From Syntrophaceae bacterium (GTDB lineage: Bacteria; Desulfobacterota; Syntrophia; Syntrophales; UBA5619): 42,989 nt of DNA. Position numbers and translations under genes: made by a program. Of this stretch, positions 256-31,383 are shown piece by piece. The stretch lies in NCBI GenBank assembly GCA_003141195.1, contig PLLC01000072.1, forward strand, positions 3,166 to 46,154, in the 5' to 3' direction. Position 1 is the stretch's first letter. Each line of letters opens with the position of its first letter. The notes under the pieces are model-generated. The model was given only the letters and a program-made list of their open reading frames with translations, was not told where the DNA came from and ran no database searches.

Positions 256-3200
256 ATGAGGATCCTTGGCGTACGGTTCAAAAACCTGAACTCCCTTGCG
301 GGCGAATGGCAGGTGGATTTCACCCACCCGGACTATGCGTCTGACGGCATATTTGCTATTACGGGCCCTACCGGTTCCGGAAAGACGACCATCCTCGACG
401 CCGTCTGCCTCGGGTTGTACGGCCGAACGCCCCGTCTGGACAAGGTGACGAAAAGCGGCAACGAGATCATGTCGCGCCAGACGGGTGAATGCTTTGCCGA
501 GGTGACCTTCGAGACACAGAAGGGCCGGTACCGCTGCCACTGGAGCCAGCACCGCGCCCGGAAACAGTCGGAAGGCGAGCTGCAGCAGGCCAGGCATGAA
601 ATAGCCGACGCCGATTCCGGGACCGTCCTGGAATCGAAGATCACCCAGGTGGGTGAATTCATCGAAAAGGCCACGGGTATGGACTTCGAGCGCTTCACCC
701 GTTCGATGCTGCTGGCCCAGGGGGGATTCGCGGTCTTTCTCCAGGCCCCTCCCGACGAGCGGGCGCCCATCCTGGAGCAGATCACCGGGACCGAAATCTA
801 CAGCCGGATATCCATGAAGGTTCACGAGCGCCGCACGGAGGAGCGCGACCATCTCGAGCTGTTGCAGGCGGAACTGAAGGGAATCCAGGTTCTAAGCGCG
901 GAGGAAGAGAGGGAGCTGCAAACCGGCTTGAAGGAAAAGCAGTCCCGGGAAGCGGAGCTGGAGAGCCGGGTCGAAGGCCTCCGCAAGGCGGCCCTCTGGC
1001 TGGATCGTGTGGCCGCCCTGGAAAGGGAGATCACTGAACTGGACGGGAAGCTCCTGGATTTCGAGAAGCGTCGGCAGACGTTTGCGCCGGAATCGATCAA
1101 ACTGGAAAAATCCCGCAAGGCCCTCGGTCTGGAAGGCGATTACCGGGGGGTCGTTACTTTGCGTTCCCAGCAGGACGATGAGACAAAGGAACTCGATGGC
1201 GCACTCGCAATGCTGCCCGAAAAAAAGAAGGGTTGCGCCGATGCGCTGACCCTGAAACAGGCCGCGGAGGCTGGGCTGAACGAGGCGCGGACCCGGCAGA
1301 TCGCCGAAGCGGGAGTCATCAAGAAGGTACGCGAACTGGATGCCAGGCTGGGGGAGCAGAAAAAGCAGGTTGAAGAGAAGGTCAAGGCGATTGGGGAGAC
1401 CGAGAGGCAGGGAAGGGGATATCAAAGCAACATCGGACAGGTCGAGCGGGCGCTGAAAAAGGCGCAGGCAGGCCTGGAAGCGATCCGGGACTACCAGGCC
1501 AGGCACGCCGCAGATGCCATGCTGCTGACCAACCTTGCCGTCATTGCCAGGGAATTCGTGTCGCTTCGCGATAGGGAGGCAAAGCATGCCAAGGCCTGCG
1601 AAGAGCTTTCCGTGGCAGCCGGGAAAAAGGCGTCCGCCGGTGCGGCGTGTCACAAGCTTGAAGCCGACCACGAGAAATCCCGCCGGGAATTCGAGAAGGG
1701 GCAGAGGGAACTCGGGCGTCTAAACGATGAGCTTACGGCCATCCTCCAGGGACGCGATCTCGGCCGGTGGCGCGATGAGGCAGATGCCCTGAAGGAGCGC
1801 GAGCGTCTTCTGCTTCAGGCGGGCGAAACCATCGACCGGATCGAAAAGACAGGCCGGGCGCTGGACGGTCTGAAAACGGTCTTGGAAACCTTCCAGGCCG
1901 GTCATGAGAAGCTCTCGGGAGAGATCAAAACCTCCTCGGATCAAAAGGCGATTCTGGAAAAGGAGATCGGAACCCTGGAAACGGAGGTTTCTCTCCTCGG
2001 CCGGATCCGTGATCTTGAGGAGGAAAGGCGGCGGCTGGAGGACGGCAGGCCGTGCCCTCTGTGCGGCGCCACCGATCATCCCTACGCGAAGGGCAATCTC
2101 CCCGAATGGAACAGGGCGGAAGCCGGCTTGAAAAAGGCAAAGGCTAAATACAAAAAAGTGTCTGAGAAACTGGGCAAACTGGAAACCGAACTGGCCAAGG
2201 CGGCGGCGGAGATCCGGCATACGGAAAAAGAGATGGGGGAGAAGAGAGCCGCGCGGGATACGGATGAAAAGGCGTGCGGTGACGCGCTGGTGAAGCTGAA
2301 TATCCACGGTAATGCGCATATGGGGACAGATTTTGAATCTGTCCCCATATGCGAGGCGCTGGCCGGTGTCCGGACGAAAATGGCCGAAACAGCCGCCGTC
2401 GTCACCGTCGCCGAAGAGAAAGGCAAGAGGGAGAAGACGGCGCAAACGACGCTGGAGACCTTCCGGACGCAATTCGAGAACGCGGGCAAGGCGTTGCAGG
2501 AGGCCCGGCATCAATTAGAGACGGCCGGCCGGGAGCACGAACGGCTGATCCGGGAGCGTGACGCTATTGGGGAAGAGACTCAACAGGTCCGCACCGCGGC
2601 GCTTACGGGGGTGGAACCGTTCGGGATCGTAGAGATTCCCTCGGCCGGTCTCGACGCCGTCTTGCGGGACCTCACCGGGCGCAGGGATAAGTGGCAGGCC
2701 GGGCAGGATGAAAAAACCGCCGCCGGGAAGAGGATCGGTGACCTGGGGGCCGCGCTCGACAAGGAGAGCGCACTGCTTGCGAGTCTTGAAAGGGATCTGA
2801 CCGCAAGACGCCGGGATCGTGACGATCGGCTGCGGCAGGTTGAATCCCTCAGCGCTTCCCGCCGGGAACTCTTCGGGGAGAAGAATGCCGACCAGGAGGA
2901 AAAACGGCTGGCGGACGCCGTGGATCGGGCGGGCAGGGCCTTCGAAAAGGCGCGCGAAGAATGCGAAAAAATGGAGAAAGAGATCGGCGCCCTGAAAGAT
3001 AAAATCGATCGGTTGAAAGAAAGGACGGGAAAAAGGGCGAAGGATCTGGCACGGGCGGAAGGGAACCTAACGGAGCGGATCGACAGGGCGGGGTTCGAAA
3101 ATGAGGCCGGCTATTTGTCTGCCTGCCTGGCCGAAGAGGCGCGGGAGAGGCTCGCGGATCGGGAGAAGGCCCTGGTCAAGGAGAAAACGGAACTGGACGC

Positions 3201-3939
3201 CCGCCGGAGGGACCGATCGGAGGCGCTGGCGGCGGAACGCGAGAAAAGCCTGACGGATCAGCCCGGCGAGACGCTTCGGGAAACCATCGGCGTCGGTGAG
3301 GCGGACCTGAGACGGATCCGTGGCGATATCGGCGGAATCACAAACAGCCTGGGTGAAAACGAAAAAATGAGGGAAAGGCAGCAGGAACGCATCAACAACA
3401 TGGACGCCCGGAAAAAGGAATGCGCCCGCTGGGACGACCTGCATCTGCTGATTGGCTCCGCCGACGGCAAGAAATTCCGGAACTTTGCCCAGGGGCTGAC
3501 CTTCGAGATGATGACGATGCATGCCAACCGCCAGCTCCGGAAAATGACGGACCGCTACCTGCTCATCCGCGACGCATCGCAACCGCTGGAACTGAACGTC
3601 ATCGACAACTATCAGGCGGGCGAGATCCGCTCCACGAAGAATCTCTCCGGCGGCGAAAGCTTCATCGTCAGCCTGGCCCTGGCGCTCGGCCTCTCCCAGA
3701 TGGCGAGCCGCAATGTGCGCGTCGATTCGCTCTTCCTCGATGAAGGGTTCGGAACCCTTGACGAAGATTCCCTGGAAACGGCCCTGGAAACCCTGGCGGG
3801 ACTCCGTCAGGACGGCAAGCTGATCGGCGTCATCTCCCATGTCCCGGCGCTCAAGGAGCGTATCGGCACGCAGATCCGGGTAGCCCCCGGAACCGGCGGG
3901 CGCAGCAGCCTGACCGGCCCCGGATGCCGGAGGATTTGA
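256..3939 (+). CDS. sbcC: Exonuclease subunit SbcC (Rad50-type SMC-like ATPase)
   Basis: This 1227-residue protein has the plan of SbcC/Rad50: an N-terminal ATPase half with Walker A GPTGSGKT (residues 37-44), a long charged coiled coil, a zinc hook CPLC (residues 600-603), a second coiled coil, and a C-terminal half with the signature NLSGGES and Walker B DSLFLDEGFG (about residues 1130-1165). With SbcD it forms an ATP-dependent nuclease that opens hairpins and processes blocked double-strand ends. The start ATG follows an AAAGGGG ribosome site. The sbcD end just upstream fits the usual operon. Unusual: a perfect 39-bp palindrome lies inside the second coiled-coil half (2315-2353) and is read in frame. 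The family assignment is firm. Confidence 0.93.
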   Translation: MRILGVRFKNLNSLAGEWQVDFTHPDYASDGIFAITGPTGSGKTTILDAVCLGLYGRTPRLDKVTKSGNEIMSRQTGECFAEVTFETQKGRYRCHWSQHRARKQSEGELQQARHEIADADSGTVLESKITQVGEFIEKATGMDFERFTRSMLLAQGGFAVFLQAPPDERAPILEQITGTEIYSRISMKVHERRTEERDHLELLQAELKGIQVLSAEEERELQTGLKEKQSREAELESRVEGLRKAALWLDRVAALEREITELDGKLLDFEKRRQTFAPESIKLEKSRKALGLEGDYRGVVTLRSQQDDETKELDGALAMLPEKKKGCADALTLKQAAEAGLNEARTRQIAEAGVIKKVRELDARLGEQKKQVEEKVKAIGETERQGRGYQSNIGQVERALKKAQAGLEAIRDYQARHAADAMLLTNLAVIAREFVSLRDREAKHAKACEELSVAAGKKASAGAACHKLEADHEKSRREFEKGQRELGRLNDELTAILQGRDLGRWRDEADALKERERLLLQAGETIDRIEKTGRALDGLKTVLETFQAGHEKLSGEIKTSSDQKAILEKEIGTLETEVSLLGRIRDLEEERRRLEDGRPCPLCGATDHPYAKGNLPEWNRAEAGLKKAKAKYKKVSEKLGKLETELAKAAAEIRHTEKEMGEKRAARDTDEKACGDALVKLNIHGNAHMGTDFESVPICEALAGVRTKMAETAAVVTVAEEKGKREKTAQTTLETFRTQFENAGKALQEARHQLETAGREHERLIRERDAIGEETQQVRTAALTGVEPFGIVEIPSAGLDAVLRDLTGRRDKWQAGQDEKTAAGKRIGDLGAALDKESALLASLERDLTARRRDRDDRLRQVESLSASRRELFGEKNADQEEKRLADAVDRAGRAFEKAREECEKMEKEIGALKDKIDRLKERTGKRAKDLARAEGNLTERIDRAGFENEAGYLSACLAEEARERLADREKALVKEKTELDARRRDRSEALAAEREKSLTDQPGETLRETIGVGEADLRRIRGDIGGITNSLGENEKMRERQQERINNMDARKKECARWDDLHLLIGSADGKKFRNFAQGLTFEMMTMHANRQLRKMTDRYLLIRDASQPLELNVIDNYQAGEIRSTKNLSGGESFIVSLALALGLSQMASRNVRVDSLFLDEGFGTLDEDSLETALETLAGLRQDGKLIGVISHVPALKERIGTQIRVAPGTGGRSSLTGPGCRRI
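2315..2353. repeat. Perfect palindrome inside sbcC
   Basis: CGCATATGGGGACAGATT (2315-2332) and its exact reverse complement (2336-2353) flank a TTG spacer. The 39 bp equal 13 codons, so sbcC stays open and encodes roughly HMGTDFESVPICE, whose glycine, proline and cysteine are out of keeping with the surrounding Lys/Glu-rich coiled coil. The core GGGGACAGATT...AATCTGTCCCC resembles REP-like palindromes that I recall from delta-proteobacterial genomes in association with REP-type transposases. No transposase is present here. Confidence 0.8.
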
Positions 3940-31356: not shown

Positions 31357-31383
31357 GGGGACACCTTGCCGCAAGGTGTCCCC
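31357..31383. repeat. Perfect palindrome GGGGACACC...GGTGTCCCC in the rplJ leader
   Basis: GGGGACACCTTGC and GCAAGGTGTCCCC, separated by one C, form a 27-bp near-continuous palindrome between the L10 leader and the rplJ ribosome site. Its outer GGGGACA/TGTCCCC matches the core ends of the palindrome inside sbcC, so it may be a member of the same REP-like family and not a ribosomal regulatory element. Confidence 0.6.

Follow-up and report, generated by a model that had tools for sequence, protein, structure and literature searches.

The window, i.e. the whole stretch of 42,989 nucleotides analysed here, contains on its forward strand a gene for an SbcC/RAD50-like ATPase of 1227 aa (sbcC, 256-3939), an ORF without internal stops whose two ends encode SbcC/RAD50 domains (AAA_23, SbcC_Walker_B). 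Its reading frame is open across a perfect 18+3+18 bp palindrome (2315-2353; neither the palindrome nor its DNA parts are assigned to a strand). The arms (2315-2332 and 2336-2353) comprise 18 nt each, are 100% complementary and enclose a 3-nt centre, TTG (2333-2335), which is TTA in two sister species; the in-frame 18+18 bp inverted repeat with a 3-bp spacer is thus as the first-pass annotation of this DNA had described it. No other close inverted repeat of the window is as good, the runner-up among perfect repeats having 13 bp, and in 12 Markov shuffles of the window the longest inverted repeat did not exceed 12 bp. A shared mobile core, GGGGACAGATTTTGAATCTGTCCCC (2322-2346), is bordered by a left arm extension, CGCATAT (2315-2321), and a right arm extension, ATATGCG (2347-2353), exactly complementary to each other and both outside the core. 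The repeat-derived codons, HMGTDFESVPIC (2317-2352, forward strand), lie where the coiled coil is predicted to break, and the outermost base pairs belong to the adjoining Ala and Glu codons; of the 13 codons originally counted, the in-frame read-through stands and the extent is reduced accordingly. The CPLC zinc-hook motif (2053-2064, forward strand), invariant in 32 homologues, lies about 85 codons upstream of the insert. An assembly artefact is ruled out as the source of the insert by its presence in at least four separate assemblies. The ORF upstream of sbcC resembles SbcD by eye, and just upstream of sbcC (124-147) lies a different REP-like hairpin, CATTCCCGCGAAAGCGGGAATC.

The core of the sbcC palindrome is a dispersed repeat. 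Its 25 bp read GGGGACAGATT(TTG)AATCTGTCCCC, and the pattern GGGGACAGATT-n-AATCTGTCCCC has 38 exact matches, i.e. 38 complete copies of the family, in the 3.27-Mb genome (G000), in which the reversed control pattern has none; the palindrome is therefore not unique, whereas uniqueness would have spoken against the original proposal of an inserted element. Most exact half-sites (76 of 90) lie within complete palindromes. Complete copies number 38 in G000, 26 in G001, 67 in G008 and 63 in the related genome G062, with a range of 0 to 67 within the genus. The family is distributed patchily over the order (25 of 148 genomes), and the majority of its copies are intergenic.

The palindrome bears GGGGACAG at both ends, which fits the terminal motif GGGGWSAS of TIRYT elements (PMC3733652; also described in PMC6006769), the TIR-associated tyrosine transposases of TnpA_REP subclass 2.1 (PMC3733652, PMC6006769). 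Y1 transposase genes of the genus lie between inverted repeats that begin with GGGGAC and continue differently; the RAYT gene of the window's own genome has GGGGACATAATACC at its 3' end. G062 contains a truncated Y1 gene (PF01797, E 3.8e-6) flanked by GGGGACAGATTTATTT and AAATAAATCTGTCCC. Because of the fitting ends, the GGGGAC repeats at Y1 genes of the genus and the flanks of the G062 gene, the palindrome reads as two outer TIR ends of a TIRYT element placed head to head. The TIRYT likeness comprises the GGGGWSAS ends, the related Y1 genes of the genus with their GGGGAC inverted repeats and the dispersal of TIR-derived repeats; the difference is that here a 25-bp palindrome stands alone, to which each TIR contributes no more than its outer 12 nt. 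The REP-like element proposed at first holds as a multi-copy REP-like element of a Y1-linked kind, with the GGGGWSAS terminal-repeat type; it belongs to neither the GTAG nor the CGTC family of REPs, since the palindrome ends in GGGG/CCCC and carries neither tag. A search for a Y1 transposase had also been suggested; it yielded the genus genes with GGGGAC ends and no intact gene with exact GGGGACAGATTT ends, the sole Y1 gene with the same TIR being the truncated one in G062. G010, among these draft genomes, has 18 family copies and no Y1 match. Two Y1 genes of the window's own genome (ORFs of 146 and 111 aa) were rejected as the source; they are IS200/IS605 TnpA-like and lack matching ends.

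A hexamer coding test applied to 127 copies, with those flagged as coding on both sides counted as in frame, returned 17 in-frame copies in about ten genes. The hosts, named by Pfam or by eye, are sbcC, mfd, an epimerase, an aminotransferase, a glycosyltransferase, a molybdopterin oxidoreductase, an FAD protein, a SIS/GATase protein, an ArsA-type ATPase and an alpha/beta hydrolase. In mfd, two loops have been struck repeatedly by the family, and a different REP family has entered one of these in G009: the loop that is family-filled in G000 and G002 holds an unrelated palindrome in G009 (L173), ATCCCCGA...TCGGGGAT. Net length changes in sbcC and mfd relative to empty alleles are multiples of three and mostly below 25 (e.g. 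+15, +18), which implies that target bases were lost. The only translations seen in frame are GDRF[EQ]ICP and GTD[LF]KSVP; the GQISNLSP frame never occurs among the in-frame copies, and a reading-frame preference was discarded as an explanation, the third frame being open in too few copies to be meaningful. Proteins at L101, L137 and L153 contain several in-frame peptides (GHDAASCP, MMPHRVP, DFKSVP), which resemble translated repeats from more than one REP family.

The sbcC insert is common to three species (the window, L037 and L038) and absent from most other SbcC homologues, which agrees with the absence from relatives expected of an insertion. A divergent allele (L047/L053, with a decayed copy in L075) carries a second family copy, no more than about one codon away from this position; the allele's relatives L054 and L055 have no insert. 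The site differs in net length from insert-free relatives by about +12 nt in the window, +3 nt in the two sister species and +15 nt in the other allele; since the gain amounts to a few codons and not 13, native sbcC sequence was replaced by the repeat, not simply added to. An AlphaFold model of the hook region has a mean pLDDT of 87 and interrupts the helix at segment residues 202-216, a stretch that overlaps the insert (209-220), so the site is plausibly a tolerant loop. One genus (L050-L055, L165-L171) contains two divergent sbcC alleles with about 65% identity, while mfd of the same genus is 84-98% identical to that of G008; this suggests allele replacement.

The main new point is a locus-specific growth of the arms, which is statistically strong and for which we infer a mechanism. 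In 24 of the 127 copies the arms continue for at least 6 bp into exactly complementary, locus-specific flanks, against a mean of 0.5 and a maximum of 4 copies in 2000 flank shuffles, and the extension lengths are bimodal (0-4, then 7-12). The full 18-bp arms had been taken for the repeat; the shared core has 25 bp, and CGCATAT/ATATGCG is such a local extension. A comparison of filled and empty sites, covering about half of G001 contig by contig, revealed that the left arm at L149 (filled, G001) repeats in inverted form the native right flank, which is still present at the empty site L107 of G008. In mfd, G008 carries a 9-bp extension at a position where the empty alleles of G010, G001 and G006 lack any inverted repeat. 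Syntenic copies differ in their extensions (L032 10 bp, L123 4 bp, L144 0 bp) and keep the core, while flank identity is about 60% within 12 bp and 87% at 60-120 bp; perfect cores were selected by the search pattern and near-core flanks are often intergenic, and the fast divergence beside the core may partly be intergenic relaxation. The centre is inverted in 5 of 29 comparable syntenic pairs, a picture that separate insertions could also give. Arm growth is not automatic for palindromes, since copies of a sister family, GGGGACACCTTGC, are not extended (0 of 13 reach 3 bp). A GGGGACA palindrome, GGGGACACCTTGC-C-GCAAGGTGTCCCC, with three exact copies in the genome, lies in the window at 31357-31383, in the leader that separates an rplA-like from an rplJ-like ORF (both ribosomal-protein-like, named by eye).

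We consider it probable that the palindrome is a solo TIRYT-type miniature element, mobilised by a Y1 transposase, tolerated in an SbcC loop and then subject to foldback template switching at its site. Two outer TIR ends (GGGGACAGATTT) joined head to head would once have been moved by a Y1 (HUH) transposase and have landed where the coiled coil of SbcC has a flexible break; a version without stops and in frame (GTDFKSVP) would have been tolerated there and later inherited by three species. The hairpin would render its site liable to foldback template switching, either in the course of insertion or afterwards: a polymerase copying one flank into the other would lengthen the arms (CGCATAT/ATATGCG in sbcC), and the same switching would flip the centre and replace adjacent bases, with only frame-keeping changes surviving within genes. 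Transposase-driven insertion, template switching and neutral tolerance are thus what we infer behind the dispersed family, its in-frame state, its recurrence in loops, the extended arms and the flipped centres.

The extension could instead be made during insertion itself, one end of the single-stranded hairpin joining the target and the 3' end folding back to prime a copy of about 7-12 nt of target. The bimodal lengths and the gain of element plus inverted flank copy at L149 are in its favour, and the unequal extensions of L032, L123 and L144, which appear to stem from a single insertion, point to later change; on balance we regard this as rather unlikely. The corresponding idea that hairpin end joining and self-priming write an inverted target copy of this length, a new footprint or inverted target duplication, appears slightly more doubtful still. 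Insertion into pre-existing hairpins or inverted repeats, with the extended arms as old target sequence, would account for locus-specific complementary flanks, yet it is contradicted at two sites, by the mfd alleles without inverted repeat and by the empty L107 site with just one of the two arms, and we judge it highly improbable.

With regard to sbcC itself, strongly supported forks of the gene tree lie between the insert-bearing clade A (three species) and clade B, and two independent acquisitions are therefore likely; clade B members G004 and G006 have no insert. A single event spread between the divergent alleles by gene conversion would explain the nearly identical position, the minority core TTTTAAA shared by both alleles and their co-occurrence in one genus. 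It fits less well with the differing insert flanks and the insert-free sister B alleles, and repeated strikes on one site do happen, as the mfd loops demonstrate, so that gene conversion remains the less likely course. The first-pass annotation had found a palindrome in the gene of a palindrome-cutting nuclease striking. As the same family lies in frame in mfd (at two sites) and about eight other genes, among them those of the epimerase, aminotransferase and glycosyltransferase, the pairing is probably a coincidence, and a link to the function of SbcC is not supported. That the palindrome is a functional part of sbcC, e.g. an mRNA hairpin or a DNA site for self-limitation of SbcCD, could be argued from the predicted RNA hairpin, which is very stable (-36 kcal/mol, z -7.2), and from the same loop having acquired a copy twice. 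Most homologues manage without the insert, however, unrelated genes carry the family, the G037 copy is decayed, and identical codons in the insert are not clearly commoner than sbcC divergence predicts, i.e. no constraint at the DNA level was detected; such a function is very improbable.

Among known systems, intragenic GTAG/CGTC REPs also place in-frame palindromes in genes, including repair genes, and such insertions, recurrence at one site included, have been on record since 2013: according to the main text of PMC3733652, two Xanthomonas species have recB struck at roughly the same position. The ends of the present family differ (GGGGAC), and that main text names neither sbcC nor mfd. Rickettsia palindromic elements (RPE) likewise lie in frame within conserved proteins, as the copies described here do; RPE-1 is longer in the account of PMC3733652 than the approximately 8-12 codons found here. 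Template switching is known to homogenise arms and to invert spacers (PMC8604942). The family resembles quasipalindrome mutation (PMC8604942, PMC7202029) in its arms, which are extended beyond chance (24 copies vs 0.5 expected), and perhaps in its inverted centres; the difference is that a mobile palindrome apparently nucleates the process here and that it reaches into unique DNA at the flanks. Our literature search found no publication that combines REP and quasipalindrome terms.

The striking pairing of a palindrome with a palindrome nuclease gene thus requires no special cause, and arm growth by copying of neighbouring DNA seems to be the more unusual part. An inverted target duplication, if true, would be a transposition hallmark of a new kind. 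Palindromic repeats in genes are usually viewed as static inserts; here the mobile palindrome seems to be a nucleus that keeps rewriting its surroundings, with unique DNA beside it as the source of the longer arms and with as many as a dozen residues altered in conserved proteins without loss of the frame. The family offers a natural, countable system for hairpin-driven template-switch mutation and for the origin of new peptide loops.
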